Shown: piece after piece, positions 12,571 to 32,046 of the stretch
How positions within the stretch are numbered: the first letter of the stretch is position 1
Layout: each line of letters opens with the position of its first letter
Assembly (NCBI GenBank): GCA_016937715.1
Contig: JAFGWA010000039.1
Coordinates: 1 to 40,322 of the forward strand
Direction of reading: 5' to 3'
Length of the DNA stretch: 40,322 nt
DNA from: Candidatus Goldiibacteriota bacterium
GTDB taxonomy: Bacteria > Oederibacteriota > PGYV01
Notes under the pieces: model-generated
Databases searched by the model: none
What the model was told of the DNA's origin: nothing
The model's input: the letters and a program-made list of their open reading frames with translations, nothing else
Program-made: the position numbers and the translations under genes

Positions 12571-12581
12571 GGAGGCAAAAG

Positions 12582-14210
12582 ATGGGAATGTACTGCAATC
12601 AGTGTCAGGAAACAGCTAAGAACACAGCCTGTACTGCTAAGGGGGTATGCGGAAAGAACGACAGCACTTCAAACCTTCAGGATCTTCTGATATTTCTTCT
12701 GCAGGGAATATCGTATTACGCGGAAAAAACAGGCAATAAAGATAGAAAATACGGGTTATTTTTGTGTCAGGCGTTGTTTGCCACAATCACAAACGCGAAT
12801 TTTGACGATGATAAAATAGAGAGCCTTATCAGAAAGGCTCTTGTATTAAGGGGCGAGTTAAAAATCAAATCCGGTGCTGCGGCTGACGCGCCTGACTGCG
12901 CGGTGTGGGAAGGTTCAACAAAGGAAGAATTCGCACAAAAAGCCCTTTTAACAGGCGTGTTAAGTTACAGTTCAAATGAAGACGCAAGGTCTTTAAAATC
13001 GCTGATGGTTTACGGGCTTAAAGGTATTGCCGCTTACGCTGACCACGCCGCAGTGCTTGGTTATTATGATGATGAAGTGTTTGCGTTTATCGTAAAGGCG
13101 CTTGCGTCAATTCCCAAAGACCTTGGCGCGGACGAACTTACGGCGCTTGTACTTGCAACCGGGGAAGCGGCGGTAAAAGCAATGGCGGTTCTTGATAAGG
13201 CCAATACAGAAACATACGGCAAACCTGAAATTACAAAAGTTAATATAGGCGTAAGAAATAATCCGGGTATTCTTATTTCCGGCCACGATTTAAAAGATAT
13301 GGCGGAACTTTTAACTCAGACTGAAGGCACCGGAGTGGATATTTACACTCACAGCGAAATGCTTCCTGCAAATTATTACCCTGCTTTTAAAAAATACAAA
13401 CATTTTGCCGGTAATTACGGCGGATCGTGGTGGCATCAGAATAAAGAGTTTGATACCTTTAACGGGCCGATAATAATGACAACCAACTGCATTGTACCTG
13501 TTAAGGATTCATACAAAGACAGGATATTTACCACGGGAATGGCCGGATATCCGGGCGTAAAACATATTGCAGACAGGGAAGATGGAAAGGCAAAGGATTT
13601 TTCCGCTGTTATTGAACTTGCAAAAAAATGCCCGCCGCCTGTTGAGCTTGAAAAAGGTGAAATTATAGGCGGTTTTGCGCACGATCAGATACTTGCCCTT
13701 GCCGATAAAGTGGTGGATGCCATAAAAAGCGGTGCGATTAAAAGGTTTGTGGTAATGGGCGGATGCGATGGAAGGCAGCCCGGCAGAAGTTATTTTACAG
13801 AAGTGGCGGAAAACCTTCCGAAAGACACTGTGATTTTAACGGCCGGGTGTGCCAAGTACAGGTATAACAAACTTCAGCTTGGAGACATAGGCGGCATACC
13901 GCGCGTGCTTGACGCGGGACAGTGTAATGATTCCTATTCGCTTGCAGTTGTGGCGCTTAAACTGAAAGAAGTTTTTGGTTTAAAAGACATAAATGAGCTG
14001 CCGATATCTTTTGACATTGCATGGTATGAACAAAAGGCCGTGGCAGTACTTCTTGCTCTTCTGTTTTTGGGCGTTAAAGGAATAAGGCTTGGCCCCACAT
14101 TACCCGCGTTTTTATCTGCCGGCGTGGCAAAGGTTCTTGTTGAAAACTTTAATATTAAAGCAACCGGAGAAGTGAAAGCCGATATAGAAGCTATGATGTC
14201 AGGAAAATAG
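12582..14210 (+). CDS. hcp: Hybrid cluster protein (hydroxylamine / NO reductase)
   Basis: Fe-S/Fe-O protein first described as hydroxylamine reductase and linked to NO reduction and protein S-nitrosylation in other bacteria. The 542 residues begin with the cubane cluster ligands Cys5, Cys8, Cys17 and Cys23 (C-x2-C-x8-C-x5-C, the Desulfovibrio-type spacing). Hybrid-cluster regions are intact: GHDLKDM, the His/Glu segment near [49 protein letters not shown] and [19 protein letters not shown] precedes ATG. It is the second gene of the rrf2 unit and ends at a strong terminator. No hcr reductase gene is adjacent, so the electron donor is unknown. Confidence 0.97.
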
Positions 14211-16007: not shown

Positions 16008-17390
16008 ATGAAACAGGACGGTATTTTTTCTTTACAGGTTCTGGCCGGATTTTTAGCGTTTATTCTCGCGCTTAATCCCCTGGCACTTGAAACTAAATGG
16101 GTTTTTGCCCTGATATGCGGCCTGGTGGTTCTGTTATCATATGTTAAGTCATGGGTCAACGGCCTCTTTATATCGCTGTTTTCTGTCTTTATTTTTTATT
16201 CCATGAACGGTTTAAAGGCGGCGGAATTATTTTTTTATATTGTTTCGCTTGCCGCCCTCTGTGTGCTTGCGGATTTTTCGGGTAAAATAAGAAAAAAACC
16301 TGAAACAAAAAGTTCTGACGACGACGAAAAAGAATTTGTAAATAAAGTGGTTAATTCCCTTATGCTTGCGCATGATATGCTGCGCGAGATTAAAGCGGAC
16401 ACTAATTCTCTTTCTGTAAGAAAAGTGCTTTCAAGGAATATAGAGTCTATAATGGGAATTAAACATATGTTTGTGTATTCAACAGAACCAAAAAAGGACG
16501 GGGTGCTTACCTCTGTTTTTTCCCACGGGGACATGCACGGCCAGATAAAAGATGAAATAGAGCCGGAAAAAATAAATGACCTTATGTTAAAAAATATCAG
16601 CGCCGATTCCACGGGTTTTATTTCTGCGGCGGCCGGCCTTAATGCGGTTATTGTACCGGTCTTTGACGAAAACAAACTGCGTGAAATAACGGTGGCGGTG
16701 CGAGAAAAGCCCTTCAGGGAAATTGACATTTATATACTTGAATTTTTCAGCGAGCAGGTCTTTATAATTATGGAAAAACACGCCCTTATTTCCAAACTTA
16801 AAGGCAATTATGAAAAAATAATACAGGCGCTGGCTATTGCAATAGACACAAAAGACCATGAAACACACGGGCATTCTATGGCCACGATGACCTACGCGAT
16901 AAAACTTGCGGAAAAACTTGGGCTGCCGGAAACTGAAAAAGAAAAAATACGGTATGCCTCGCTTCTGCACGATATAGGAAAAATAAATATAAGCAGCAGT
17001 ATTCTTAATAAACCGTCTTCGCTTACCAAGGAGGAATTCGGGGTAATAATGCAGCATCCCAAGGAAGGCGTTGATATTTTAAATAAACTGGATATATTTG
17101 ATGAGATTCTTCCTATTATTCTCTATCATCACGAGCATTTTGACGGTAAAGGGTATCCTTCAAACCTTAAAGGAGAGGAAATTCCGCTTGGAGCCAGAAT
17201 ATGTTCCATAGCGGATGCTTATTCCGTAATGCGTTCTGACAGGCCTTACAGAAAAGCCCTTACACAAGAAGCGGCAGTCAGCGAGCTGAAAAAATGTTCC
17301 GGAACGCAGTTTGATTCAAGGCTTGTGGGTAAGTTTCTTGAAATAATAAATGAAGAAAACGGCGGCGCCGGCGGGATTCAGCTGAACTGA
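16008..17390 (+). CDS. Membrane HD-GYP domain protein (putative cyclic-di-GMP phosphodiesterase)
   Basis: 460 residues. Three to four hydrophobic segments fill residues 8-95. A middle region (about 110-265) looks GAF-like, with secondary structure and length fitting but no clear ligand motif. A C-terminal HD-GYP domain (about 268-450) is complete: HGHS early, the metal pair His321-Asp322 in LLHDIGKIN, a conserved HP-x-EG, His374-His375 in YHHEHFDGKGYP (GYP at 382-384) and the SIADAYSVMRSDRPYR segment. HD-GYP enzymes degrade c-di-GMP to GMP. All metal ligands I look for are present, so it is probably active. cheR starts 1 nt after its stop codon. Confidence 0.93.
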   Translation: MKQDGIFSLQVLAGFLAFILALNPLALETKWVFALICGLVVLLSYVKSWVNGLFISLFSVFIFYSMNGLKAAELFFYIVSLAALCVLADFSGKIRKKPETKSSDDDEKEFVNKVVNSLMLAHDMLREIKADTNSLSVRKVLSRNIESIMGIKHMFVYSTEPKKDGVLTSVFSHGDMHGQIKDEIEPEKINDLMLKNISADSTGFISAAAGLNAVIVPVFDENKLREITVAVREKPFREIDIYILEFFSEQVFIIMEKHALISKLKGNYEKIIQALAIAIDTKDHETHGHSMATMTYAIKLAEKLGLPETEKEKIRYASLLHDIGKINISSSILNKPSSLTKEEFGVIMQHPKEGVDILNKLDIFDEILPIILYHHEHFDGKGYPSNLKGEEIPLGARICSIADAYSVMRSDRPYRKALTQEAAVSELKKCSGTQFDSRLVGKFLEIINEENGGAGGIQLN

Positions 17391-17391
17391 C

Positions 17392-18210
17392 ATGGATGAG
17401 ATTACCGCGTACCTTAAAATAAAGGAAAAGATACACGCTGACCGCGGCCTGGACGTCAGCCAGTATAAGGAAAATTATTTAAAAAGAAGGTTCGCGGTAA
17501 GGATGCGCGCGCTTGGGGCAAGGCTTTACGCTGATTATCTTAATGTGCTTGAAAGAGACAGCAGGGAAATGTCGGTGCTGCTGGACAAACTTACCATAAA
17601 TGTCACCGAATTTTTCAGGGATCCGGAAGTGTTCACGGTATTTGAAAATGAAATTCTGCCGAAGATGTTTGAAGAAAGTAAAAAAATAAAAGTTTGGAGC
17701 GCCGGCTGCAGTTCCGGTGAAGAGCCGTATTCAATAGCTGTTTCAATTGAAGAAACAATGGAAAGGCTGGGCGTAAAGGGTGTTGATTACGAGATTCACG
17801 CCACTGATATTGATGATGCAATCCTGTTCAGGGCTGTTGAAGGCAGATATGAAGGGCACACGCTTGATAATGTGGCCGCCAACAGGAAAGCAAAGTATTT
17901 TATAAAGGACGGCAATTACTTCAGGATTAAGGATTCAATAAAAAAGAAGGTAAAGTTTATCAGGGCTAACCTGATGAAACCATATTTAAAAGAGCAGTTT
18001 GACTTTGTTTTCTGCAGAAATGTGATAATATACTTTTCAAGGGAGCTGCAGAAAAGTGTGCTGCTGTTTTTTCATGAAGCGCTTAAAAAAAACGGAGTTT
18101 TTTTTATGGGAAAGACAGAGACCATGCTTCTGGAATACCGCGATAAGTTTAAGTGCATTAACATAAAAGAACGCATTTTTACAAAGCTGGAAGACGGAAA
18201 GGAAGAATAG
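17392..18210 (+). CDS. cheR: Chemotaxis protein methyltransferase CheR
   Basis: S-adenosylmethionine-dependent methylation of receptor glutamates. 272 residues with both domains: an N-terminal helical domain with the RRFAVRMRALG-type basic helix and LTINVTEFFRDPEVF, and a C-terminal SAM-binding Rossmann domain with KVWSAGCSSGEEPYSIA, HATDIDDAIL and FVFCRNVIIYF. There is no C-terminal TPR fusion; instead the next gene encodes a separate all-TPR protein. It works against CheB in the same operon on the single receptor at 24019. Confidence 0.97.
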   Translation: MDEITAYLKIKEKIHADRGLDVSQYKENYLKRRFAVRMRALGARLYADYLNVLERDSREMSVLLDKLTINVTEFFRDPEVFTVFENEILPKMFEESKKIKVWSAGCSSGEEPYSIAVSIEETMERLGVKGVDYEIHATDIDDAILFRAVEGRYEGHTLDNVAANRKAKYFIKDGNYFRIKDSIKKKVKFIRANLMKPYLKEQFDFVFCRNVIIYFSRELQKSVLLFFHEALKKNGVFFMGKTETMLLEYRDKFKCINIKERIFTKLEDGKEE

Positions 18211-19377
18211 ATGCAGACGGTACAGGACCATATAAACCTTGGCCTTGCCTTTACGGTAAGCAAGAATTTTGGGCAGGCTATTTCAGAGTTTGAAAGGGCG
18301 CTTTCAATTAATCCTGATGACGCGGAAGTGCATTCTCATCTTGCCAACGCGCTTGTTTTTAAAGGCGATTTTGAAAAAGGCGTGCAGGAATATGAAAAGG
18401 CTCTTAAACTTAACCCTATGAACATAAGCGCGCTTATGCGCCTTGGCAAACTGCACGCGAATATGGGTAAACATGAAAAAGCGCTTGAAGAATACAAAAA
18501 AGCGATTGAGATAAAGCCCAAAGACCTGGAATTAAAACACGCTCTTGGCGATCTTTACCTTAAAATGGATAATTATGAAGAAGCGCTTAAGATATACAGG
18601 GACATTCTGGATTTAAAACCCGATTACAGCGAAGTCAGGTTCAAAACAGGGTATATTTATGAAGCGCAGAAGAAACACATCGAAGCCGCCGCGGAATATG
18701 AAAGGGTGCTTAAAGCCAACCCTAAAAGTTCCGGGATAAATTCAATGCTGGGCAACGTGTTCAGGGAGCTTAAAGATTATTCCAAAGTAATAGAATATTA
18801 TGAAAAAGCCATTAAACTGAATCCCGCTGAAACAGGAGTGGCATATAACCTTGGAATTTTATATTACAATCAGGGTAAGTTTGAGCAGGCGTTAAAAGAA
18901 CTACAGCGCGCGAAAAATTCCATAATGACCTCCGAAATTTGCCTTCTTGTCGGGGAAATTTACGGGAAACTTGGGAAAAAGAAAGAGGCCATAGAAGAAT
19001 ACAAAAAAGTTGCTGAAATGGGAGCCGCAGACGCAGAGGTTCACAAGGCGCTTGGATTTATCTACATGGAAGAGGGACAGCAGGACGATGCTATCATTGA
19101 ATATAAAAAAGCTCTGGATAAAAAAGGCGATGATGTAACCATTCTTGAAAATATAGGGAATATTTATTATAAAAAAGTTATGTATAAAGAGGCAAAGGAA
19201 TATTTTTCAAAGTCAATTGAAAAGGGGCGTGAAAACGGGGATATTTATTACAAAATGGGAAATATGTCCCTTAAAGAAGGCAAAGCTGAAGACGCAAAAA
19301 AACACTGGAAAAAATCGCTGGAACTTAACCCGGAAAACGAGATAGTAAAAAAGAATTTAAAACTGCTGGGCGGTTAG
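18211..19377 (+). CDS. All-TPR protein (about 11 repeats)
   Basis: 388 residues almost entirely made of 34-residue tetratricopeptide repeats: I count 11 in a row from residue 3 to 376, most closing with a P-x-D/N or similar turn. No signal peptide or membrane segment, so it is cytoplasmic. It begins at the base after the cheR stop codon, strict translational coupling. Some CheR proteins in other bacteria carry a C-terminal TPR domain, so this may be a split-off partner scaffold of CheR. A solenoid of this length would form a superhelix suited to protein binding. The partners are unknown. Confidence 0.9.
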   Translation: MQTVQDHINLGLAFTVSKNFGQAISEFERALSINPDDAEVHSHLANALVFKGDFEKGVQEYEKALKLNPMNISALMRLGKLHANMGKHEKALEEYKKAIEIKPKDLELKHALGDLYLKMDNYEEALKIYRDILDLKPDYSEVRFKTGYIYEAQKKHIEAAAEYERVLKANPKSSGINSMLGNVFRELKDYSKVIEYYEKAIKLNPAETGVAYNLGILYYNQGKFEQALKELQRAKNSIMTSEICLLVGEIYGKLGKKKEAIEEYKKVAEMGAADAEVHKALGFIYMEEGQQDDAIIEYKKALDKKGDDVTILENIGNIYYKKVMYKEAKEYFSKSIEKGRENGDIYYKMGNMSLKEGKAEDAKKHWKKSLELNPENEIVKKNLKLLGG

Positions 19378-19384
19378 GCGGAAT

Positions 19385-19993
19385 ATGGAAACAATAAAAA
19401 AACAGGATAAAAGCCTGGGAACACTGCTTTTGCAGGCGGAATATATTACAAAAGAGCAGCTTGATGAAGCCCTGCGGGAACAGGCTTCCACAGGCGAGCA
19501 TCTGGGAAAAATCCTGGTAAAAAACGGCATAATCAAAGAACAGCAGATTATGGAAATGCTTAAGGGTATTCTTGTCGTAGTGTTTCAGGTACGCGAAGAA
19601 CTTTATGCCCTTGAAGTGGTTTTTTCCAAGGAAATTATAAAACCAAAAAAAATAATACCTGTTCCGGGCGTGCCTTCATATATCCTTGGGCTTATGGGGA
19701 TAAGGGAAGATGTGGTGCCGGTAATCAGTTTATCGATGAAAATCTTCGGAAAACAAAGCCCTATTGATGAAAATTCAAGGGTTATTATCGTGGAAGTAAA
19801 AGAAGAAAAAATAGGGCTTCTTGCGGATGGTGTTTATTCGGTGCGTAACTTTGAAGCGTCTGATTTTGAAAATGCTTCAAAACATAATTTTGATTCTGAT
19901 AAAAAATACATAGCGGGGATTATAAGGGACAAAGACAGGATAGTGACGCTTTTAAAACCGGAAGCTTTCGCTGAAAAGGATAATAAACCATAG
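19385..19993 (+). CDS. CheW-like adaptor with an N-terminal MshEN-like domain
   Basis: 202 residues. The first 60 hold two consecutive L-G-x-x-L motifs with following helices: LGTLLLQAEYITKEQLDEAL (11-30) and LGKILVKNGIIKEQQIMEML (40-59). This is the pattern of the MshEN / type II secretion ATPase N-terminal domain, members of which bind c-di-GMP. The canonical first residue Arg of each motif is Ser10 and His39 here, so binding is uncertain. From about 62 to 195 is a CheW fold (VVFQVREELYALEVVFSKEI, PVPGVPSYILGLMGIREDVV split across strands). CheW couples receptors to CheA. The fusion would let a nucleotide or protein signal act on the array. It overlaps the next gene by 1 nt. Confidence 0.88.
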   Translation: METIKKQDKSLGTLLLQAEYITKEQLDEALREQASTGEHLGKILVKNGIIKEQQIMEMLKGILVVVFQVREELYALEVVFSKEIIKPKKIIPVPGVPSYILGLMGIREDVVPVISLSMKIFGKQSPIDENSRVIIVEVKEEKIGLLADGVYSVRNFEASDFENASKHNFDSDKKYIAGIIRDKDRIVTLLKPEAFAEKDNKP

Positions 19994-22179
19994 TGGAAGA
20001 AAAAAACGATAATTCAAAACAGGAAAAAAAAGAAGACGCCGTATCTTTAAATAATCTTGGAGTGTATTATTATTCCAAGGGAATGTATCAGGAAGCTATA
20101 GAAAATTTTAAGAAAGCAATTGAAATGAATCCCACCTACACCCAGGCCCAGGAAAATCTGAAATCCGTAAATAAACAGACTGGTATATATGACCGGGCAA
20201 TCCTGGCATACCGGAAAGCGCTTCAGTTTTACGCGGGTGACCCGGAAGCCTATTATAACCTTGGCAACGCGTTAAGTTATACGGGGGATTATCAGGAGAG
20301 CCTTAAACTTTTAAACCGGGCGCTGGAATTAAATCCGGAACACCTGCTTGCCAGAAACCTTATGGGGATAATTTATAAAAATACAGGCGAATATGACAAA
20401 GCCGAAGCTGTCTTTAAAAAAGCGCTGGAACAGTATCCTAATTACTCGGAAATAAGGAATAATCTTGGCGAAACGCTTTATAAAAGGGGCATGTATGAAG
20501 AGGCGGAAAATGAACTGAAGAAAGCCATTCAGATAAACAAAGAATACGCCCTTGCGTATTATAATTTAAGTTTTGTGTACGGCGAACTTGGCAGGGATGA
20601 AGAAGCGCAGATGTGTTATAACAGGGCTATTGAACTTAACCCTTCATTTGTCCAGTCCAACAAAAGCCTGGTAATAGAGCATTATGATGAGAAATCACAG
20701 AAACGCGAAAAATTTGTGGAATCTATGAAAGAAGACAGAAAAGAAGAGGCTTATTACAACCTTGCTCGCGTAAATAAAATGAAAGGCTATATTGACGACG
20801 CGATAAGGGAGATTAAGAAAGCCATTTCACATAATGGAAGCAACCCTTTATACTATAATTTTTTTGGAGAGCTTTTGATTAAAAAGCACCTTTTAAGTGA
20901 TGCTATAGAGGTGTTTAAACAGACGCTGAAAATAGACCCGGCGCTTGTTGATGCTAAGGTTAATATTGCTGTGGCGTACAGGGAGATGGGAGATTATGCC
21001 AAAGCCCTTGCCGTTCTGGACGCGGTGGAAGAGGAAAACCCGGAATTCAGAAGGATAGAACTTGAAAGGGCCGTGATATTTATAAAGCAGGACCTTCTTG
21101 AAGACGCGGTAAAAAAGCTTACCGCCCACCTTGTAAAAGAGCCGTATGACAATGAAGCCCGCTATTATCTTGGCACATGTTATTATAAACAGAAAAGGTA
21201 TGATGAGGCGGTAACGGAATTCAGAAACGCCCTTGAAATGCAGCCGCATTACATGAGAAAACCGGAAGTGAATTTATACCTTGGGCTGGTTTTGACGGAT
21301 AAAGGAAGAAATGAAGAGGCTGTGATTGAATATCAGAAAGTAATTTCCATGCAGCCGTCAAACGCGGTGGCTTATAACAGTATGGGCGTGTCTTACAAGA
21401 ATATGGGCGATCTGGAAAAAGCGATAGAATATTATAAAAAAGCCGCCGAGATAGATCCAAAATACTTTAAAGCGTATAACAATCTGGGAGTGGCCTTTTA
21501 TAAAAAGAATTTTTTCATAGAAGCGCAGAAGTATTTTGAAAAAGCCCTTGAAATAGAGCCGGGGTATGAAGTTGCCAGGAAAAACCTTGAATCCGCCAAA
21601 AAGAAGGACATTGTATTTAAGGAAACCATATCAAAATTAAGTGAAAAAGCGGCAACGGAAGAAAAAAACCCCATTATTCACAGCGATTTAGCAGGCGCGT
21701 ATAGAAATACTGGACATTTGCGGGAGGCTATTGTAGAATATAAAAAAGTGCTTGATTTACAGCCTGATAACAGGGATGCCATTATAAATTTAGGGTCTGT
21801 TTATTATGAGACCGCCAAATATGATGAGGCCATAAAATGTTTTATTTCCGCCGTGTCCGGCAGCAGCAAAGACCCGGCGGCGCATATGAAGCTTGCTATG
21901 GCATATCAGAAGAAAGAATGGTGGGACGAGGCGGATATTGAATTCCACAAAACGATTGAAATTGACCCCAAAATGTCAGAGGCATATTTCAGGCTTGGGG
22001 AAGTTTTTCGCAATAAAAGCTGGTGGGATGAAGCCATTGAAATGTGGAAAAAATATATAGAATTGAATCCGGACAGCGAATTTGCCACACAGTCGCAGGA
22101 AAACATCCGAATGGTGGAAATATGGCGTAAAGAACTTATGCTTTCGCCTTCTGCCGGAAGAAAAAAGATTATTAAATGA
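19993..22179 (+). CDS. Large TPR protein (about 18 repeats)
   Basis: 728 residues starting with GTG, whose first base is the last base of the previous stop codon. I count about 18 TPR units in three blocks: residues about 14-220, 245-545 and 575-695. They are separated by two charged helical linkers. The last two repeats carry unusual Trp pairs (KKEWWDEADIEF and NKSWWDEAIEMW) that are absent elsewhere in it. No signal peptide. The last 4 nt overlap the PII gene. It is a cytoplasmic scaffold by appearance. Some TPR proteins bind glycosyltransferases (OGT-like), but no such domain is fused here. Confidence 0.9.
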   Translation: MEEKNDNSKQEKKEDAVSLNNLGVYYYSKGMYQEAIENFKKAIEMNPTYTQAQENLKSVNKQTGIYDRAILAYRKALQFYAGDPEAYYNLGNALSYTGDYQESLKLLNRALELNPEHLLARNLMGIIYKNTGEYDKAEAVFKKALEQYPNYSEIRNNLGETLYKRGMYEEAENELKKAIQINKEYALAYYNLSFVYGELGRDEEAQMCYNRAIELNPSFVQSNKSLVIEHYDEKSQKREKFVESMKEDRKEEAYYNLARVNKMKGYIDDAIREIKKAISHNGSNPLYYNFFGELLIKKHLLSDAIEVFKQTLKIDPALVDAKVNIAVAYREMGDYAKALAVLDAVEEENPEFRRIELERAVIFIKQDLLEDAVKKLTAHLVKEPYDNEARYYLGTCYYKQKRYDEAVTEFRNALEMQPHYMRKPEVNLYLGLVLTDKGRNEEAVIEYQKVISMQPSNAVAYNSMGVSYKNMGDLEKAIEYYKKAAEIDPKYFKAYNNLGVAFYKKNFFIEAQKYFEKALEIEPGYEVARKNLESAKKKDIVFKETISKLSEKAATEEKNPIIHSDLAGAYRNTGHLREAIVEYKKVLDLQPDNRDAIINLGSVYYETAKYDEAIKCFISAVSGSSKDPAAHMKLAMAYQKKEWWDEADIEFHKTIEIDPKMSEAYFRLGEVFRNKSWWDEAIEMWKKYIELNPDSEFATQSQENIRMVEIWRKELMLSPSAGRKKIIK

Positions 22180-22514
22180 AAAAAATAACCGTAATTATAG
22201 CACCTTCAAAGTTTGAAGCTTTAAGAAAGCGCATGATAGAAACCGGTGTGTGCGGGCTTACTGTAACCTCCGCTGAAGGTTTTGGGGTGCAGAAAAGCAA
22301 GCTTGAAAAGATGAAGGACAGGGACATTGCGGTGGAATTTCTGCCCAAGTCAAAAATTGAAATGGTGGTTAAAGACGCCGAAGCGGAAACTGTGATAAAA
22401 GAGATAATTGACTGCACCAGGACGGGCAGGATAGGCGACGGGAAAATTTTTATTTCTGAAATAACGGATGTTTTAAGGATAAGGACGGGCGAAAGAAAAG
22501 AAGATGCCCTTTGA
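22176..22514 (+). CDS. PII-family signal protein lacking the uridylylation tyrosine
   Basis: 112 residues, same numbering as E. coli GlnB. Nucleotide-site residues are in place: Thr29-Val-Thr31, Gly37, Gln39, Lys58, Gly87-Asp-Gly-Lys90, Arg101 and Arg103, with the closing TGRIGDGKIFI and VLRIRTGE motifs. The T-loop (about 37-55) is full length, but position 51, Tyr in classical GlnB/GlnK, is Ile, and the loop is rich in Lys and Asp. So ATP/ADP and 2-oxoglutarate sensing is expected while uridylylation is not. PII genes usually neighbour amtB or glnA. Here it lies between a TPR gene (ATGA overlap) and cheY (26 nt), implying input to the sensory pathway. Confidence 0.92.
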   Translation: MKKITVIIAPSKFEALRKRMIETGVCGLTVTSAEGFGVQKSKLEKMKDRDIAVEFLPKSKIEMVVKDAEAETVIKEIIDCTRTGRIGDGKIFISEITDVLRIRTGERKEDAL

Positions 22515-22540: not shown

Positions 22541-22906
22541 ATGGCAAAAAGAGTATTAATAGCCGATGACGCGGCGTTTATGAGAATGATGCTTAAGAAT
22601 ATACTTACCGAGGGCGGGTATGAAGTTGTGGGCGAAGCCGGCAACGGGCGCGAAGCCGTTGAACTTTACAGAAAACTTCTGCCTGATATGCTTATTTCCG
22701 ACATGGTTATGCCGGAAATGGGAGGAATAGACACGTTAAGGGAGATAATAAAAGATTTTCCCAATGCCAATGTGCTTATCTGCAGCGCCATAGGGCAGCA
22801 GGCTCTTGTAATTGAAGCCATTCAGGCGGGGGCAAAGGATTATATCGTAAAACCGTTTGATCAGTCAAACGTGCTTGAAACCGTGGGAAAGATATTGGGT
22901 GCTTAA
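22541..22906 (+). CDS. cheY: CheY-like response regulator (first copy)
   Basis: 121-residue single receiver domain. It shows the acidic pair in LIADDAAFMR, the phospho-acceptor Asp in ISDMVMPEMGG, a Ser in ICSAIGQQ at the switch Thr/Ser position and Lys in IVKPF. It is closely related to the second receiver at 25765, sharing the GQQALVIEAIQAGAKD stretch almost exactly, so the two are paralogues. GGAGG lies upstream of ATG. The next gene is cheC, a CheY phosphatase, starting right after the stop codon. There is no output domain; it acts by protein contact. Confidence 0.95.
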   Translation: MAKRVLIADDAAFMRMMLKNILTEGGYEVVGEAGNGREAVELYRKLLPDMLISDMVMPEMGGIDTLREIIKDFPNANVLICSAIGQQALVIEAIQAGAKDYIVKPFDQSNVLETVGKILGA

Positions 22907-23527
22907 ATGGCCATTAAACTGAGCGATTTTCATAAAGACGCCCTTCGTGAAATGGGAAACATAGGTGCCGGCAACGCGGCCACCGCGCTTTCACAGCTTT
23001 TAGGAAAAGATGTTTCATTAAGTGTGCCCAAAGTGTTAATGGTTCCTGTTGATAAAATGGTGGACCGGATAGAATCAAAAAATGAAATTGTTGCCGCTGT
23101 TTATCTGAAAATTTTCGGGGATATTACAGGCAGGGCGCTTATGATTTTTCCGCAGAACAAGGTATTCTTAATTGTTGACCTTCTGATGAGGCGCCCCCTT
23201 GGCACCACAAAAGAGTTTGGGGAAAATGAACAGTCCGCTTTAAAAGAGATAGGAAATATTCTTATTTCGTCATATATGAATGCCATTGCAAAATTAATGG
23301 GGTTAAATTCAGTGCCTTCGGTGCCCGCGCTGGCCGTTGATATGGTGGAAGCGGTCTTTCAGACTGTTTCCGCGGAAATTGCGGAAACAGGTTCAGAGGC
23401 GCTTTTGATAGAAACTGATATGGTGGAAGAGACCGCGAAAATACAGGCGACTGTTTTTTTAATACCTGATGAAGAATCCATGAGAAAAATATTAAAGGCG
23501 CTTGATAATACGGCAAGCGGCGCCTGA
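22907..23527 (+). CDS. cheC: CheC-family CheY-P phosphatase (first copy)
   Basis: 206 residues. Two phosphatase helices, each with D/S-x3-E-x2-N, are intact: DALREMGNIGAGNAATALSQ near the N-terminus and SALKEIGNILISSYMNA in the middle. CheC with two active helices removes phosphate from CheY and binds CheD, as in Bacillus and Thermotoga. The gene begins immediately after cheY and is 7 nt before cheD, the classical functional trio. A second CheC paralogue lies at 29302. Confidence 0.95.
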   Translation: MAIKLSDFHKDALREMGNIGAGNAATALSQLLGKDVSLSVPKVLMVPVDKMVDRIESKNEIVAAVYLKIFGDITGRALMIFPQNKVFLIVDLLMRRPLGTTKEFGENEQSALKEIGNILISSYMNAIAKLMGLNSVPSVPALAVDMVEAVFQTVSAEIAETGSEALLIETDMVEETAKIQATVFLIPDEESMRKILKALDNTASGA

Positions 23528-23534
23528 AGAATAA

Positions 23535-24011
23535 ATGCCTGCTAAATGTATCAAGGTAGGTATGGGAGAGCTGCACACCGGACAAAGCGGTGATATATTA
23601 ACCGCGTACGGAATAGGTTCCTGTATTGTGGTGGTGTGTTTTGACGCTGAAAAACCGATGGCAGGAATGCTTCACGCAATGCTTCCGGAAAAGGCAGGAA
23701 AAGGTACGGACAAAAACAGATATGCCGATACGGGGATTGAAAATCTTGTTAAGGCAATGATAGATATGGGAGCGGGCATAAAAGAGATGCGCGCCAAGAT
23801 TTTTGGCGGAGCCAGGATGTTTGAAATAGGAAATCAGGAAGAATCCATAGGCAGCAGAAACGTTAGAAAGGCAAAAGCAATTCTTGAAAAAAAAGGAATC
23901 CCGATACTGGGAGAAGACACCGGAAACAATTACGGCAGGACAATAGAGTATTTTGTAACGGAAAAAAAAGCAAAAGTAAAAAGCTTCGGCAGGGATATTA
24001 AAATAGTGTGA
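23535..24011 (+). CDS. cheD: Chemoreceptor glutamine deamidase CheD
   Basis: 158 residues. The enzyme deamidates receptor glutamines and is regulated by CheC. The catalytic Cys is Cys30 in GIGSCIVV and the catalytic His is His47 in MLHAMLP, 17 residues apart as in the family. The KIFGGARMF and NYGRTIEYF segments are also typical. The Thr that completes the triad in Thermotoga CheD is at 23, one residue further from the Cys than I expect, which may be an alignment shift. Spacing of 7 nt to both neighbours. Confidence 0.95.
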
Positions 24012-24018
24012 GGTAATA

Positions 24019-25296
24019 ATGGCTGTAAATAAAACCGGAAAAAAAGGTTTTTTCCTTAAAAAGATGCTGATAATTAACCTGTCAGTGGCTGTTGTTACGG
24101 GCATTGTCCTGGCTTCTATACTGTATTTTTTGAAGCTTTATGAAAAACCGTTTATGTTTTTTATGCTTATCACAGGGGTGTTTGCACTTGGGGGAGCTGC
24201 CGCTGTTTTTATGGGGGCTAAAGCCGTTATAGATGCTTTTACAAATGTGGCTTTTTTCTTTGATAAAATTGCTGACGGAGATTTGACCACAAGGGTTGAG
24301 GAAAGCGACGGGTTTCTGCCTGTTATTGCCAGGCCGATAAATAAAATGACAGCAAGCACAAAAAAAGTGCTTCTGCAGATGAAAGAGTCCATAGATACCA
24401 TGAGAATGCTTTCGGAAAACCTTTCCGCTTCAACGGAAGAAATAAACGCGTCCGCTGAAGAAATAAGCAGCACCGTTCAGCAGATAGCCCACGGCGTGGA
24501 ACAGCAGGCGGAACGTACCGTGGAAACTTCCAGAATTATGGAGAACATGTCAGATTCAATACAGACTGTGGCGTCAAAGTCCGAAGATGTGCTTAACGTC
24601 GCCAATGAGGCCAAACAGGCTTCTGAAAAAGGGATGGAAGCCGTTAAACAGACAATTATAAAAATTGAAGATATAGTGCAGGTGACAAGCAAGGCAAAAG
24701 ATTCAATAGAAGAACTTAAAAGGTATTCCGAAAAAATAGAAGAAGTGGTAAATATAATTACCGAAATAGCGGACGAGACAAACCTGCTGGCGCTGAATGC
24801 CAATATAGAAGCGGCGCGCGCGGGCGAAGCCGGCCGCGGTTTTGCCGTTGTGGCGGAAGAAGTAAGAAAACTTGCCGAAGGTTCCGGGGATGCGGCAAAG
24901 GAAATTGCCAGGCTTGTGGAAGACATACACGAACGCACGGCACAGGTGGTTGTGGATATAATGACCGGAGTGCGCGAAACAGAAGAGGGCAAACTTGTGG
25001 TTAAAGAAAGCGGGCAGGCTTTAAAAGAGATAAATGCCGTTGTCACAAAAGTGGTAAAACTTTCAAATGAGATTTTCAGCCTTACCAAAGCGCAGGCGGA
25101 AGACACGGATAAAGTGGTAAAGGCGGTTGAAGAAATAGCCGCGGTATCGGAAGAAACAGCCGCGGGCACGCAGCAGGCTTCCGCTTCCACGCAGGAACAG
25201 ACCGCGTCCATGCAGGAAATAGCGGCGCAGGCGCAGGAACTGGCGCAGATGACGGAAACTCTGCGCGAATCAATTTCAAAGTTTAAAACGGAGTAA
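24019..25296 (+). CDS. Methyl-accepting chemotaxis protein without a periplasmic sensor domain
   Basis: 425 residues. Two membrane helices (about 16-38 and 45-70) are joined by only about six residues, so there is no room for a periplasmic ligand domain. A HAMP-like segment follows ([17 protein letters not shown] with PINKM after it), then a long coiled coil with the receptor tip [20 protein letters not shown] and [16 protein letters not shown]. Glu/Gln-rich methylation helices are present on both arms. There is no C-terminal pentapeptide for CheR/CheB binding. It is the only receptor in the window. Sensing must be in the membrane, at the HAMP or via cytoplasmic partners. Confidence 0.94.
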
Positions 25297-25298
25297 AA

Positions 25299-25787
25299 GT
25301 GGAAAAGAAAATTGTGGGCTTCAGGCTTAAGGGAGAGGAATTTGCTTTTAACATAATGAAAGTGGTTGAAATAATCAGGTTAAAGCAGATAACACCCGTA
25401 CCTACGGCGCCGTCCTTTATAGAAGGCGTTATAAATTTAAGGGGCAAGATTATACCCATCATAGACCTGCGTAAGCGTTTTAAACTGCATGAAGACGCGC
25501 GCGGAAAAAATGTAAGGATAATTATAATTGAAATGCACGGCAGCCAGCTTGTAGGCGTGATTGTGGATGAAGTGACTCAGGTAATTACCGTGCCGGAAGA
25601 ACAGATACTGCCGGCGCCGCCTTCCATAGTAAGCGTGGGCGGCAGGTATATTGAAGCTGTTGTGCAGCTGGAAGATAAAATAATTGTATTTCTTGACATT
25701 GAAAAAATATTTTCTGATCAGGAAAATTCCGAAATGCAGGGAATATCAATCACGGAGGCAGGAATTGAAGAAAGTCCTGATTGTTGA
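25299..25787 (+). CDS. cheW: Chemotaxis coupling protein CheW
   Basis: 162 residues, GTG start 2 nt after the receptor stop codon. Two SH3-like subdomains with the usual motifs: VGFRLKGEEFAFNIMKVVEI, PVPTAPSFIEGVINLRGKII, PIIDLRKRF and VGVIVDEVTQVI. It bridges the receptor tip and the P5 domain of CheA. Unlike the fused copy at 19385 it has no extra domain. The last 20 residues are outside the fold and overlap the start of the following cheY by 23 nt. Confidence 0.96.
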   Translation: MEKKIVGFRLKGEEFAFNIMKVVEIIRLKQITPVPTAPSFIEGVINLRGKIIPIIDLRKRFKLHEDARGKNVRIIIIEMHGSQLVGVIVDEVTQVITVPEEQILPAPPSIVSVGGRYIEAVVQLEDKIIVFLDIEKIFSDQENSEMQGISITEAGIEESPDC

Positions 25788-26130
25788 CGATACAAAGTTC
25801 ATGAGAAATATGCTGCGCAACATCCTTAAAAAAAAGGATGTTGAAGTTGTTGGTGAAGCGGTAAACGGCAGAGAAGCGGTTGAAAAATTCAGGGAGTTAA
25901 AGCCTGACCTTGTTACCATGGATATTATAATGCCCGAAATGAACGGAATTGAAGCGGTGAAAGCTATTCTGGCGGAAGACCCTTCGGCCAAGATACTTAT
26001 CTGCAGCGCCATGGGGCAGCAGGCAATGGTGATAGAGGCAATTCAGGCCGGAGCCAAAGATTTTGTTATAAAACCTTTTCAGCCCGCAAGGGTTCTGGAG
26101 GCGGTTGACAGAACGCTTCAGGAGAACTGA
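25765..26130 (+). CDS. cheY: CheY-like response regulator (second copy)
   Basis: 121 residues from TTG 25765, chosen because CGGAGG (25753-25758) sits 6 nt upstream and the protein then begins MKKVLIVDDTKFMRN. The open frame extends 27 codons upstream but only as a shadow inside cheW. Acidic pair, phospho-acceptor Asp in VTMDIIMPEMNG, Ser in ICSAMGQQ and Lys in VIKPF are all present. It is a near paralogue of the copy at 22541. The start lies 23 nt inside cheW, and cheB follows after 3 nt. Confidence 0.95.
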   Translation: MKKVLIVDDTKFMRNMLRNILKKKDVEVVGEAVNGREAVEKFRELKPDLVTMDIIMPEMNGIEAVKAILAEDPSAKILICSAMGQQAMVIEAIQAGAKDFVIKPFQPARVLEAVDRTLQEN

Positions 26131-26133
26131 TAA

Positions 26134-27198
26134 ATGGGAAAGATAAGGGTTCTTGTTGTGGATGATTCCGCTTTTATGAGGAAAATTATACCCCAAATCC
26201 TTCAGGAAGATGACGGAATTGAAGTCATAGACACCGCGAAAGACGGGCAGGAAGCTTTTAAGAAAACCCTTGAATTAAAACCTGACGTTATCACGCTTGA
26301 CGTGGAAATGCCAAAAATGAACGGCCTTTCCACCCTTGGATGCATAATGAGCGAACGCCCAACGCCGGTTATTATGCTTTCCGCCTATACGCCCAAAGGC
26401 GCGGAAACAACCCTTCAGGCGCTTGAATACGGCGCCGTGGATTTTGTCTGTAAACCTTCCGGTGAAATATCCATAGACATAAAAAAAGTAAAAGACGAAC
26501 TTATAAGCAAGATAAAAATAGCTGCAACAACTGACGCTTCCAAACTTACATTTTTTACCCCCGAAACCGTGGAAAAAACCGCGCCTGAAAAAGAAAAAGA
26601 GATAAAAGATTTTGTGCTTGTTATAATTGCCACATCCACCGGAGGGCCAAGGGCGCTTTCTGAATTCGTCACAAAAATTCCAAGAAATCTTCCGGCGGCG
26701 TATCTGGTAGTTCAGCACATGTCTCAGGGGTTTACAAAGACCCTGGCGGAAAGGCTTAACAGCCAGTCGCTTATAAGCATTAAAGAAGCGGAAGACGGTG
26801 AAATAATTACAGCAGGAAGGGCATATGTCGCGCCCGGAAATTATCATATGGAAATTGAAAAAACAGACGGAAACTATACAATTGCGCTTAACCAGAAACC
26901 CACCAGGCTTGGCGTAAGGCCAAGCGCTGATATGACGCTGTTTTCAGCGGCTGAAAAATTTGAAGGCAAATCAATTGCGGTTGTGCTGACAGGAATGGGC
27001 AGGGACGCGTCAGCCGGAGTGGAGCGTTTAAAGGCAAAAAAAGCGCTGGTGCTTGCGCAGGATAAAGACAGCAGCGTAATTTTCGGCATGCCCAGGGCGG
27101 TAATTGAAAGGGGTATGGCGGACGAAGTATCATCCATCGCGGGGATGAAAGACGCGCTTGTATCAGCAATGGCGCGTATAACGGGCGGCAAATCATGA
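26134..27198 (+). CDS. cheB: Chemotaxis protein-glutamate methylesterase CheB
   Basis: 354 residues. The N-terminal receiver domain has VVDDSAFMRK, phospho-acceptor Asp in TLDVEMPKMNG and VCKPSG. The C-terminal esterase has the catalytic Ser in IATSTGGPRAL, His in LVVQHMSQGFT and Asp in VLTGMGRDASAG, plus YVAPGNYHM. It removes methyl groups from the receptor when phosphorylated by CheA. The stop codon overlaps the cheA start by 4 nt (ATGA). Confidence 0.97.
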   Translation: MGKIRVLVVDDSAFMRKIIPQILQEDDGIEVIDTAKDGQEAFKKTLELKPDVITLDVEMPKMNGLSTLGCIMSERPTPVIMLSAYTPKGAETTLQALEYGAVDFVCKPSGEISIDIKKVKDELISKIKIAATTDASKLTFFTPETVEKTAPEKEKEIKDFVLVIIATSTGGPRALSEFVTKIPRNLPAAYLVVQHMSQGFTKTLAERLNSQSLISIKEAEDGEIITAGRAYVAPGNYHMEIEKTDGNYTIALNQKPTRLGVRPSADMTLFSAAEKFEGKSIAVVLTGMGRDASAGVERLKAKKALVLAQDKDSSVIFGMPRAVIERGMADEVSSIAGMKDALVSAMARITGGKS

Positions 27199-29210
27199 AC
27201 ATGGACAGTTACAGGGAAGTATTTATTGAAGAAGCCAGAGAAAACGTAAATAATCTTAATAATTCCCTTTTGGAACTTGAAAAGAACCTTGATGATTTGA
27301 CTCCCGTAAATGAACTTTTCAGGGCGGCCCACACGTTAAAAGGCATGTCCGCGACCATGGGTTATGACAGAATGGCGGGATTTACTCACATTCTTGAAGA
27401 AGTGCTTGATTCCGTGCGTTCCGGTAAAACAAGGCCTACGCTGGAAATTATGAACATTTTGTTTAAAAGCGTTGACGCGCTTTCTGATTTTGTTGATTCT
27501 ATAGTGGAAACCAACGCGGATTATTCAGCCGGCGCCGCAATTGTGGCGGACAGCATAAAAAAACAGCTTGAAACCGGGCAGCAGCCGCAGTTTCAAGGCG
27601 CTCCAAAAACAGTACAGATGCCTCTTAAAGAAAAAGAAGAAATGCCCGCGATAAACGCCGCGGGATTTAATTTAAAACCGGACGAAAAAATAATAAGCCA
27701 GGCCGCGGAAAAATCAATGAAAGTGTTTCTTATAAAAACAGTGCTTGATGAAAACTGCGCATTTAAAAATGTACGTTCGTTTATGGTGTCAAGAAACCTA
27801 TCTGAAAAAGGTGAAATTATAGGTTCATATCCTTCGTCCAGGGATATAGAAGACGGAAAATTTGAAAGTGAATTTGAATTTGCTTTTGCAACGGCGCTTG
27901 GCGCGCCGGAAACAAAAGCGCTTGTGTCAAAAGTATCTGAAGTTAAGGAAGTAATTATAAAAGAAGTGACGCCGGAAATGCCTGCGGAAAATGTTTTGGC
28001 GGATAAGGAACAAAGCGCGTCCTTCAAGGCGGAAGAAATAAAAAACGACGGCATGCAGAAAAAACATTCATCGGCGCAGAGCGTAAGGGTAAATATAGAC
28101 AAACTTGACACGCTTATGAACCTTGTGGGCGAACTTGTAATAAATAAGATAAGGTTTGACCAGATAGCCAAGGAAAAAAAGTATGAACTTCTTAATGATA
28201 CTGTGGAAGAATTTGACAGGGTGATAGATGAACTTCAGATAGAAATAACAAGCGTAAGAATGCTTCCCGTGTCGCATATTTTTGACAGGTATCCGCGTTC
28301 TGTACGCGACCTTGCGGTGCAGGCAGGCAAACAGGTGGAAGTGGAAATAGAAGGCGGGGACATTGAAATTGACAGGACTGTGCTTGAAGAGATGAACGAA
28401 CCGCTGCTTCACCTTATCAGAAATTCTCTTGCGCATGGTATAGAAATGCCGGACGTCAGGATAAAAGCGGGAAAGAATCCCAAGGGAGTAATAAGGCTTT
28501 CCGCCAAAAGGGAGCGCAACTCCGTAATTATAGAGGTGTCTGATGACGGCGCGGGAATTAATACTGCGGCTGTAAGAAAAAAAGCCCTGGAAAGAAAAGT
28601 GGTGACAGAAGAGCGCCTTAAAAATATGAATGACGACGAAGTGGTGTCTCTTATATCACTTCCGGGTTTTTCCACTGTGGAAAGCGTAAACAAAGTGTCA
28701 GGACGCGGAGTGGGCGTGGATGTTGTGAAAACCAAGGTGGAAGGTTTTGGCGGAATATTCAGGATAGAAAACTATCCTAAAGAAGGTTCAAAATTTATTC
28801 TGAAACTGCCGCTTACCCTGGCAATTGTGCAGGCGCTTCTTGTAAAGGCGGGCAAAGAAATATATTCTATTCCGGTAATTCACACGGTGGAGACCTTTGA
28901 AAGTTTTGAAAAAGACTACCGCTATATTCAGGACAGAAAGGTGATAATATTAAGGGAAGAAGTCATTCCGGTTTACAGCCTTATGGAACTTCTTGGAAAA
29001 AAACGGGTTGAAGCGGAAATGCACGAACTTGTAATAGTGGATGTAAGGGATAAAAAGGCCGCCATAGAAGTGGACCGCGTGATAGGGCAGCAGGAAGTGG
29101 CTATAAAAAGCCTTGGTGAATTTTTAAAATTCGCCAAAGGTTTTTCCGGCGTCACCATCCTTGGCGACGGAAGCATAAGCTTAATTGTGGATATCACGTC
29201 GCTGCTTTAA
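27195..29210 (+). CDS. cheA: Chemotaxis histidine kinase CheA
   Basis: 671 residues in class order. P1/Hpt has phospho-acceptor His46 in AAHTLKGMSATMGY. A linker follows, then a P2-like CheY-binding region (about 170-255, divergent). The P3 dimerisation helix is MNLVGELVINKIRFDQ. The P4 kinase has LLHLIRNSLAHGIE (N box), VSDDGAGIN (G1) and GRGVGVDVVKTKV (G2). The P5 CheW-like domain runs to the end. One P1 domain only, no fused receiver. ATG 27195 overlaps cheB; ATG 27201 two codons later is possible, but its spacing to GGGCGG is worse. It is the last gene of the 14428-29210 unit. Confidence 0.97.
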   Translation: MNMDSYREVFIEEARENVNNLNNSLLELEKNLDDLTPVNELFRAAHTLKGMSATMGYDRMAGFTHILEEVLDSVRSGKTRPTLEIMNILFKSVDALSDFVDSIVETNADYSAGAAIVADSIKKQLETGQQPQFQGAPKTVQMPLKEKEEMPAINAAGFNLKPDEKIISQAAEKSMKVFLIKTVLDENCAFKNVRSFMVSRNLSEKGEIIGSYPSSRDIEDGKFESEFEFAFATALGAPETKALVSKVSEVKEVIIKEVTPEMPAENVLADKEQSASFKAEEIKNDGMQKKHSSAQSVRVNIDKLDTLMNLVGELVINKIRFDQIAKEKKYELLNDTVEEFDRVIDELQIEITSVRMLPVSHIFDRYPRSVRDLAVQAGKQVEVEIEGGDIEIDRTVLEEMNEPLLHLIRNSLAHGIEMPDVRIKAGKNPKGVIRLSAKRERNSVIIEVSDDGAGINTAAVRKKALERKVVTEERLKNMNDDEVVSLISLPGFSTVESVNKVSGRGVGVDVVKTKVEGFGGIFRIENYPKEGSKFILKLPLTLAIVQALLVKAGKEIYSIPVIHTVETFESFEKDYRYIQDRKVIILREEVIPVYSLMELLGKKRVEAEMHELVIVDVRDKKAAIEVDRVIGQQEVAIKSLGEFLKFAKGFSGVTILGDGSISLIVDITSLL

Positions 29211-29301: not shown

Positions 29302-29925
29302 ATGTCTGATGATTCACTGCTGACGCTGACCGATATTCAGGTGGACGCGTTAAAAGAAGTGGGCAATGTGGGGGCGGGTCACGCTGCCACAGCGCTGTCG
29401 CAGCTTTTAAAAAGAAAAATTATGATATCTGTGCCGCAGGTTAAAATATTAAAACTTCAGGAAGTGGAAAACCTGCTTGGGGACTCAAAGACGCTGGTGG
29501 CCGGTATAATAATGAATTTTTTGGGTGATGTTACAGGAAAAATACTTCTGCTTTTAACAAGGGAAAGCGCGCTGTCGCTTGCGGATATGCTGCTGCAGAA
29601 TCCTGCGGGCACTACAAAAGTGCTGTCAGAAGTCGGTAATTCCGCTATAAAAGAAACGGGCAACATCCTTGCCGGCGCTTATATGAATGCCCTTAATGAA
29701 TTTCTGGGGCTGCTGTTATTGCCGTCTGTACCCAGCCTGGTTTTTGACATATCAGGCGCTATTTTAAATTCGTTGTCCGAAGGGTTTGAGGGAATGTCCA
29801 ATCATATCCTGTCGGTTGAGACGCAGTTTTCAGAGGAAAATGATAAAGTTATAAATGGGTATTTATTATTAGTGCCTGATATTCCTTCCGTAAAAGTGCT
29901 GCTGTCAGCAATAAAGGTGGACTGA
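29302..29925 (+). CDS. CheC-family phosphatase (second copy)
   Basis: 207 residues, a paralogue of the CheC at 22907 (both share GAG-x-AATALSQLL and a SVPSL or SVPAL segment). Both phosphatase helices are complete: DALKEVGNVGAGHAATA and SAIKETGNILAGAYMNA. It has no N-terminal CheY-binding peptide of the FliY type and no C-terminal FliN domain. It starts a separate unit under its own promoter and is followed after 3 nt by the FtsA-like gene, which ties CheY-P removal to that protein rather than to the array operon. Confidence 0.93.
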   Translation: MSDDSLLTLTDIQVDALKEVGNVGAGHAATALSQLLKRKIMISVPQVKILKLQEVENLLGDSKTLVAGIIMNFLGDVTGKILLLLTRESALSLADMLLQNPAGTTKVLSEVGNSAIKETGNILAGAYMNALNEFLGLLLLPSVPSLVFDISGAILNSLSEGFEGMSNHILSVETQFSEENDKVINGYLLLVPDIPSVKVLLSAIKVD

Positions 29926-29928
29926 ACT

Positions 29929-32046
29929 ATGGCTGTTTTTGCCCTTGATATCGGGACAAGAAAAGTGGCCGGCATACTTGGCGAATTAAGCGGCGATAAA
30001 ATACGCGTTGTTGATGCCTGCGTGCGCGAGCATGAAAAAAGGGCTATGGTGGACGGGCAGATACACAGCATTGAAGAAGTGTCGGGAATTGTTTTAAAAA
30101 TAAAAAAAGAACTTGAAGAAAGAAATAATATTGTAATAACAGAAACCGTCACCGCGCTTGCGGGAAGAAACCTGCATACGGAAAAAACAGAAGCGCTGAT
30201 AAACAAAAAAGGCGAAATAACGCGCGATGACCTGCGCGGCCTTACGATAGAATGCGTAAAAAAAGCCGTCATAAAAATGACGGAAGAAAAAAAGCAGGGG
30301 TATTACTGCGTGGGGTACAGTGTTTCGCATTACACCCTTGACGGGCAGCATGTCAAAAACCCGCTGCAGCATTTTGCCAAAGAAAATCTGGCTGTTTCCG
30401 CGATTATCACGTTTCTTCCAAAAATAACCTTTGACAGCCTTATATCCGTGTTAAAAAACTGCGGGTTAAAACTTGCGGGGCTTACCCTTGAACCGATAGC
30501 GGCGATGGCTGTGACAATTCCCGAAGATATGCGGCTTTTAAATCTGGCGCTGGTGGATGTGGGCGCCGGGACTTCGGATATTGCAATTACGGAATCCGGA
30601 AAAATAACCGCGTATGGCATGATACCCAAAGCCGGCGATGAAATAACGGAAGTTATAGTAAATGAATACCTTACGGATTTTAATCAGGCGGAAGTCATAA
30701 AAAGGGCTTCAGCGGCGGGAACACCGCTTACCGGCAGTGATATTTTTGGAAACGTTTTTGAAATAGCGCATTCGGATTTTATGCTGGCTGTAAAAGAAAA
30801 GACGGAAGAAATTGCAGCTGACATCGCGGATGAAATTCTTATGTTAAACGGCAGACAGCCGCGCGCCGTTGTAATGGTGGGCGGCGGAAGCTCTTTTGTC
30901 TATTTAAGAAACAGGGTGGCGGAAAAACTTGGGCTGCCGGAAAACAGGGTGGGCAGCAGGGAACCCGGAAACACAATGAAAATAGAGAATCTGCCCGAAG
31001 CACTTGCCGGAACAGAAGGCGCGACGCCTCTTGGCATTCTTGATACCGCGCTGTACGGCCGCGGACTGGGATTCATAGAAGTTAAAGTAAACGGGGAAAA
31101 ACAGTATATTATAAATATGGAACAGGAAATAAAAGTAATGGACGCAATAATCGCTTCGGGGATGGAATTAAAACAGCTGTATGGAAAACCGGGCGAAGCC
31201 GTGTCTTTTACGGTTAACGGGCAGCTTAATATAGTGCGCGGCGGCCACGGGGAGCACGCAAAATTTTTTGTAAACGGCATTCAGCGGGGTATTGATGACA
31301 TAATAAAAAACGGAGATGACGTTATAATAACAGCCGTTAAAAACGGAGTTAACGCGTCGGTAAAAGCCGGTGACCTTGTAACGGCGGATAACGCCCTTAC
31401 GGTGGAAGTAAACGGCAGGGTGGAAAAAATAGCGCCGGAAATTTATATAAACGGGTTTCAGGTAAGCGAAAATGAAGCGGTTCCGGACAGGGCTGCTGTC
31501 ACAATATCGGCGCCTAAAACCGTATCTGAAGTGCTGTCTAAATCAGGGCTTGCAATAGGCGCGCAGGCGCAGGAACGCGACATTATAATCACTTTAAACG
31601 GCGAGCCGGAAGTGTTAAAACAGAGAACTTATCAGCTTAAGGTTAACGGCATGGATGTGCCGCCGGATTTTGAGGTGAAGAGCATGGACAGGATGGAATA
31701 TTCCGACAAGCCAAGCTATTACAGAATACGCGACCTTTTTAAGGAAAACCTTAAAAGTAAAATGACCATTTCAATAAACGGTAAACCGTATGAAATAGAA
31801 GCAGACAGGTTTGAAATTACAATGAACGGCAGAAGGGCCGGGGAAGATGAATTCATAATAAACGGCGCTTCCATAGAAATTAAAGCTCCGCAGGAACCGG
31901 TCATACTATCCACGATATTTAAAAGCTACCCGATAGATACGGGCAGGCTTAAGGGAAAGATGCTTGACCTTAAGTTAAACGGGGAAAAGGCGGGATACAC
32001 AACGCCTATTAAGAACGGGGATAATGTGGAAATAAGGTTTGTGTAA
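29929..32046 (+). CDS. FtsA/PilM-like actin-fold ATPase with a long repetitive C-terminal region
   Basis: 705 residues. The first 375 form an actin-type ATPase of the FtsA/PilM group: phosphate-1 loop ALDIGTRKVAG, phosphate-2 LVDVGAGTSDIAI, adenosine motif VVMVGGGSSF, plus an SHS2/1C-like insert around VTALAGRNLHTEK. The tail from about 385 holds eleven copies of a hydrophobic-x-hydrophobic-Asn-Gly turn (first at 385-389, last near residue 683), suggesting tandem small beta domains. There is no C-terminal amphipathic helix of the FtsA type. Long FtsA-domain proteins of about 700 residues occur in Clostridia, function unclear. Pairing with CheC suggests polymer or localisation control by the sensory pathway. 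Confidence 0.88.
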   Translation: MAVFALDIGTRKVAGILGELSGDKIRVVDACVREHEKRAMVDGQIHSIEEVSGIVLKIKKELEERNNIVITETVTALAGRNLHTEKTEALINKKGEITRDDLRGLTIECVKKAVIKMTEEKKQGYYCVGYSVSHYTLDGQHVKNPLQHFAKENLAVSAIITFLPKITFDSLISVLKNCGLKLAGLTLEPIAAMAVTIPEDMRLLNLALVDVGAGTSDIAITESGKITAYGMIPKAGDEITEVIVNEYLTDFNQAEVIKRASAAGTPLTGSDIFGNVFEIAHSDFMLAVKEKTEEIAADIADEILMLNGRQPRAVVMVGGGSSFVYLRNRVAEKLGLPENRVGSREPGNTMKIENLPEALAGTEGATPLGILDTALYGRGLGFIEVKVNGEKQYIINMEQEIKVMDAIIASGMELKQLYGKPGEAVSFTVNGQLNIVRGGHGEHAKFFVNGIQRGIDDIIKNGDDVIITAVKNGVNASVKAGDLVTADNALTVEVNGRVEKIAPEIYINGFQVSENEAVPDRAAVTISAPKTVSEVLSKSGLAIGAQAQERDIIITLNGEPEVLKQRTYQLKVNGMDVPPDFEVKSMDRMEYSDKPSYYRIRDLFKENLKSKMTISINGKPYEIEADRFEITMNGRRAGEDEFIINGASIEIKAPQEPVILSTIFKSYPIDTGRLKGKMLDLKLNGEKAGYTTPIKNGDNVEIRFV

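Follow-up and report, generated by a model that had tools for sequence, protein, structure and literature searches.

A PII protein in the chemosensory operon of Candidatus Goldiibacteriota and its candidate TPR partner

PII proteins are among the best-studied metabolic sensors of bacteria, and elsewhere they control nitrogen uptake. Energy input to chemotaxis is usually explained by membrane receptors. In solved PII structures, 2-oxoglutarate is bound via Mg on the side chain of Gln39 and by salt bridges with Arg9 (or Lys9) and Lys58, the backbone of residues 39 and 41 also contacts this ligand, and residues 87, 90, 101 and 103 are among those that hold ATP (PMC8395244). The PII protein GlnZ of A. 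brasilense acts on cyclic-di-GMP (c-di-GMP) enzymes and on motility (PMC7646526). Here, we describe a PII gene (che-PII) in the window, that is, the whole 40,322-nucleotide stretch of DNA from a Candidatus Goldiibacteriota bacterium that was analysed, together with its relatives. In this one little-known phylum, a PII protein of the metabolic-sensor type is a fixed part of a gene cluster that steers movement, where it probably serves to let the energy state of the cell influence movement.

The operon and its PII protein

The initial annotation had placed a PII protein inside a chemotaxis operon, and this description holds: the open reading frame (ORF) encodes a full-length PII protein, and its neighbours are che genes, as follows.

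16008..17390, + strand: HD-GYP-type HD domain protein
17392..18210, + strand: CheR
18211..19377, + strand: 388-aa TPR protein
19385..19993, + strand: CheW with an N-terminal extension of ~60 aa
19993..22179, + strand: 728-aa TPR protein, the proposed che-PII partner, with the conserved C-terminal tail WRKELMLSPSAGRKKIIK
22176..22514, + strand: che-PII ORF, 112 aa, a PII protein with A9, V38, Q39, S41, I51, K58, K90, R101 and R103
22541..22906, + strand: CheY-like response regulator
22907..23527, + strand: CheC
23535..24011, + strand: CheD
24019..25296, + strand: methyl-accepting chemotaxis protein (MCP)
25299..25787, + strand: second CheW
25768..26130, + strand: second CheY-like protein (the frame of 121 aa seen in relatives; the ORF list has its start at 25684)
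26134..27198, + strand: CheB (name based on sequence; position in the gene order conserved)
27195..29210, + strand: CheA with Hpt, P2, dimerisation, ATPase and CheW domains
29302..29925, + strand: second CheC (CheC2)
29929..32046, + strand: 705-aa FtsA/PilM-like ATPase, whose position 3′ of CheC2 is conserved

The ATG of che-PII overlaps the stop codon of the 728-aa TPR gene (ATGA), the genes from CheY to the second CheC lie on the same strand as che-PII with short gaps, and the chemosensory set of CheA, CheW, CheY, CheB, CheR and MCP is complete. Several other features of the region were noted. The N-terminal extension of the CheW at 19385-19993 resembles the c-di-GMP-binding MshEN domain by eye, with only a weak DUF4388 match in Pfam; the FtsA/PilM-like ATPase, which directly follows the second CheC across families, contains a weak ThiS-like stretch; and in the window's genus the che operon is adjoined by genes for an Rrf2-type regulator and, after it, a hybrid-cluster (prismane) protein (12163-14210).

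The che-PII protein belongs to the PII superfamily. It matches PF00543 at 88.9 bits (cut-off 25) over profile positions 1-102 of 102 (Pfam) and gives a gap-free alignment with E. coli GlnB, so that GlnB numbering applies directly. The closest solved structure is 2eg1 (1e-29); an AlphaFold model built with 15 family members as input has the PII fold (pLDDT 86), and the 50 PDB matches listed for it are PII/GlnK proteins, with TM up to 0.86. The NCBIfam equivalog cut-offs for GlnB and GlnK are not reached (104.9 against 202 bits and 103.7 against 181 bits), which is weak evidence because the amtB-linked PIIs of the same genome fail them too.

Linkage, descent and distribution

Among the 45 phylum genomes compared (Candidatus Goldiibacteriota and relatives), the 728-aa TPR protein has an orthologue (E below 1e-150) in 26, spread over nine families, and in every one of these a PII gene lies directly 3′ of the long TPR gene, at a gap of -4 to +105 bp; a chance neighbour or an annotation artefact is thereby dismissed. 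Gene order around che-PII is kept between families at protein identities down to ~33-43%, CheY, CheC and CheD genes lie downstream of PII in nearly all loci, and CheA was detected in 25 of the 26 genomes. Family f7 has no CheW between its two TPR genes, and PII still directly follows the long one. In family f3 (G004 and G009), the operon is retained from CheY to the FtsA-like gene and is devoid of CheR, both TPR genes, the first CheW and PII; the 728-aa TPR protein was not found elsewhere in these two genomes. The constant adjacency, the joint loss in f3 and the retention in f7 together indicate that PII tracks the TPR protein, although the f3 loss cannot single this protein out, because a block of several genes was removed. 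The remaining CheD clusters of these genomes showed no PII, and no natural TPR-PII fusion occurs among the 26 loci. TPR and PII divergence are correlated (r 0.90), as expected from common descent alone. The C-terminal tail of the 728-aa protein is conserved in 25 orthologues, with a Trp, a Ser/Ala-Pro and a final basic residue, and this tail (WRKELMLSPSAGRKKIIK in the window) is possibly a docking peptide. Of the partners put forward in the initial annotation (CheY, CheC or a TPR protein), linkage favours the TPR protein; CheY and CheC remain when PII is lost, and a partnership between PII and the TPR protein is what we infer. Operon ends also vary: some loci of f7 and f13 (L056, L058, L090, L093-L095) lack CheA and CheC2 at this position and carry a nucleotide-sugar epimerase-like gene after CheB, and in the f13 genomes G028, G020, G025 and G034 a CheA-CheC2-FtsA-like set is found at a separate locus.

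The initial annotation had also proposed that the protein was recruited to the chemosensory operon, with PII-family phylogeny as the result that could overturn the idea, and the trees came out against a grouping with amtB-linked GlnK. Trees were built from 81 or 95 PIIs, with amtB-linked proteins of the same genomes and of other phyla included. In them, all 26 che-PIIs group as a single clade (ultrafast bootstrap 99 and SH-aLRT 97 in the careful tree; all on one side of a branch with SH-aLRT 95 in the quick tree), and the amtB-linked PIIs encoded by those genomes fall outside it. The branch remains at 99/83 once T-loop columns are removed, which disposes of the clade as a T-loop artefact. Branching inside the clade largely matches the families, as expected of vertical descent, and no amtB was found in the window operon or adjoining che-PII orthologues. 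The genome from which the window derives encodes six PIIs: che-PII, three that adjoin amtB genes, and a pair located between nifH and nifD. This nif-linked pair, on contig C28, lies apart from che-PII in the tree. On the same contig (L007:10597-17999), nifH and the two NifI-type PIIs are followed by nifD, nifK, nifE and nifN-like genes (named by sequence), and three amtB-PII pairs are also present; from these genes, this genome (G000) is predicted to be that of a nitrogen fixer.

Outside the phylum, the 728-aa TPR protein was found in none of 243 genomes at 1e-95 (with 3 candidates scored per genome), and none of 62 CheD-bearing genomes carried a PII gene within 10 kb of CheD, the nearest lying ~26 kb away (G086). 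The nearest relatives of che-PII in named genomes of other phyla are mostly amtB-linked, with none in a che operon. The presence of PII in a che operon thus looks confined to one phylum within the genomes sampled.

Ligand-site residues, the T-loop and GlnD

As the initial annotation had described, Gln39, Lys58, Lys90, Arg101 and Arg103 are all found in che-PII in GlnB numbering, and alignment to E. coli GlnB places Ile at position 51 in place of Tyr. The relevant positions within the gene are given below.

22200-22202, + strand: codon of residue 9 (Ala), on the altered 2-oxoglutarate side
22211..22211, + strand: approximate start of the che-PII stretch after residues 9-12, marking the altered 2-oxoglutarate side
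22281..22340, + strand: T-loop residues 36-55, FGVQKSKLEKMKDRDIAVEF
22326-22328, + strand: codon of Ile51

T83, D88, G89, K90, R101 and R103 are unchanged across all 26 che-PIIs, and these invariant residues make binding of ATP or ADP plausible. The 2-oxoglutarate side is altered throughout the clade: residue 9 is basic in none of the 26, Gly41 is absent from every che-PII whereas it is present in all 22 other PIIs compared, residue 38 is hydrophobic or aromatic throughout, Gln39 is replaced by Glu, His or Arg in 9 che-PIIs, and Lys58 by Gln in 3. A non-basic residue 9 is not decisive by itself, because it is also common in amtB-linked PIIs, with Gln at this position in 20 of the 22 of the phylum. 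In the window che-PII, Q39 and K58 are retained, while residues 9, 38 and 41 are Ala, Val and Ser, respectively, three features that the initial annotation had not noted. The case for canonical 2-oxoglutarate sensing is weakened by Ala9 and the lost Gly41, and in relatives by the lost Gln39, and the trend across the family appears to be towards losing the 2-oxoglutarate response; with Q39 and K58 intact, some binding by the window protein is possible.

The T-loop had been described as unusually charged. Its charge count is indeed higher: by a count made by eye, positions 36-55 carry 9 charged residues and the same stretch of E. coli GlnB carries 6, but the excess is only modest. Within the window's order, pairwise identity among che-PIIs is 50% in the T-loop against 57% in the core, and the B and C loops are conserved at 95-100%; the T-loop varies slightly more than the core, which gives no hint that it is a tightly fixed docking loop.

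Tyr51 is present in 16 of the 26 che-PIIs, and in all 10 from the window's order residue 51 is Ile or Val, a loss that maps to one change on the PII tree; most amtB-linked PIIs of the phylum also lack Tyr51. No GlnD was detected above the family cut-off in the 45 phylum genomes, whereas the E. coli and Caulobacter controls were detected, and uridylylation is therefore not expected, whether Tyr51 is present or not. The substitution of Tyr51 by Ile, a single loss in one order of a phylum without GlnD, was accordingly discarded as the key feature. The independence of GlnD that had been proposed is supported in that no genome has GlnD above the cut-off, but Ile51 is not the reason for it, since most che-PIIs keep the tyrosine.

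Proposed function and comparison with known systems

The genome of the window has both FliG and PilT, and PilT is present in 44 of the 45 phylum genomes. In four che-PII genomes of f13, FliG gave no match at threshold and PilT is present; just upstream of the che operon, f12 and f15 carry a gene for an ATPase of the PilT family; and in the f13 genome G028, CheA, CheC2 and the FtsA-like gene lie ~8 kb from pilM, pilN and secretin genes. These observations make type IV pili a likely output of the operon, with flagella as a possible second; in the window's own genome, which has FliG as well, either organelle may be the output. At L049:888-3188, the upstream PilT-family ATPase is seen to be fused to a TPR domain, and a 762-aa PilT-family protein of the window's genome sits on another contig (C111).

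Taken together, we tentatively favour a reading, to which we give somewhat less than even confidence, in which che-PII is an adenylate sensor partnered with the TPR protein that tunes chemosensory control of type IV pili and/or flagella. A vertically inherited PII paralogue dedicated to the che operon would form a unit with the 728-aa TPR protein. The che-PII trimer would bind ATP or ADP in competition, and, by analogy with PII biology, the bound nucleotide would determine the conformation of the recoded T-loop, which would dock onto the TPR protein. The TPR protein may in turn connect, as a scaffold or adaptor, to the CheW/CheA complex or else to the CheC/CheD adaptation branch. In this way, the adenylate energy state would bias chemosensory output, with a 2-oxoglutarate response that is weak, altered or absent, and the output would most likely be control of type IV pili, plus flagella where present. 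If true, this would provide a concrete route for energy state into chemotaxis. A more specific version, which we consider doubtful, has che-PII act together with the TPR protein as a cytoplasmic input module, through which the ATP/ADP state is passed directly to the CheA system that drives type IV pili. Such a module would be an energy-taxis sensor whose fold, that of a nitrogen regulator, has lost most of its 2-oxoglutarate sensing, and it would add a new class to the inputs of chemosensory systems.

Other explanations can be weighed against the same data. It is rather unlikely that a dedicated che-PII acts directly on CheA, CheC/CheD or CheB, or reports canonical 2-oxoglutarate (nitrogen/carbon) status. 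The CheY, CheC and CheD genes that follow PII almost everywhere would suit direct action, but f3 keeps all three without PII. A report of 2-oxoglutarate would agree with the Q39 and K58 of the window protein and with the Gln9 of many other PIIs of the phylum, a non-basic residue 9 alone perhaps not abolishing binding, yet G41 is lost in every che-PII and Q39 in 9 of 26. Action through c-di-GMP, in which che-PII would control the HD-GYP protein of the operon and affect motility only indirectly, appears improbable: the HD-GYP gene belongs to the operon in the window's genus, f4 and f6, and effects on motility, together with an interaction with c-di-GMP enzymes, are known for the PII of A. brasilense (PMC7646526), whereas in f2 and f12-f15 PII is kept with no HD-GYP gene beside the operon (as judged from blastp homologues of the window protein only). 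That an ordinary GlnK stands in the che operon by chance, functionally unlinked, is barely credible; its Pfam match and fold are those of an ordinary PII, but linkage in all 26 genomes of nine families, a separate clade and several other PIIs elsewhere in the genome argue against it. The proposed adenylate sensor partnered with the TPR protein is directly testable in natural variants, namely proteins with or without Tyr51 or Gln39, f3 without PII, and families without FliG.

Among the open papers searched, work on A. brasilense relates PII to c-di-GMP and motility (PMC7646526), and no description was found of a PII clade bound to a chemosensory operon. Compared with GlnB and GlnK (E. coli GlnB, A. 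brasilense GlnZ and S. elongatus PII), che-PII shares the fold, a gapless length, the C-loop RTGE and the ATP-site residues K90, R101, R103, T83 and G87-G89. Unlike them, it has a recoded T-loop with no YRG, no G41 and a hydrophobic or aromatic residue 38, it lacks a basic residue 9, GlnD and an amtB or glnA neighbour, and it falls outside their clade. NifI1 and NifI2 offer a precedent for a PII paralogue tied to one operon (nif in their case), but che-PII differs from them in clade, context and loop lengths. An influence on motility, as proposed for che-PII, is known for A. brasilense GlnZ (PMC7646526); GlnZ is a general PII acting on a diguanylate cyclase and a phosphodiesterase, whereas che-PII is encoded by a dedicated gene inside the che operon. 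With chemosensory systems of type IV pili, the operon has in common CheA, CheW, CheY, CheB, CheR and MCP, along with pil linkage in relatives; unlike those systems, the window operon has CheC/CheD and adds the long TPR proteins and PII.
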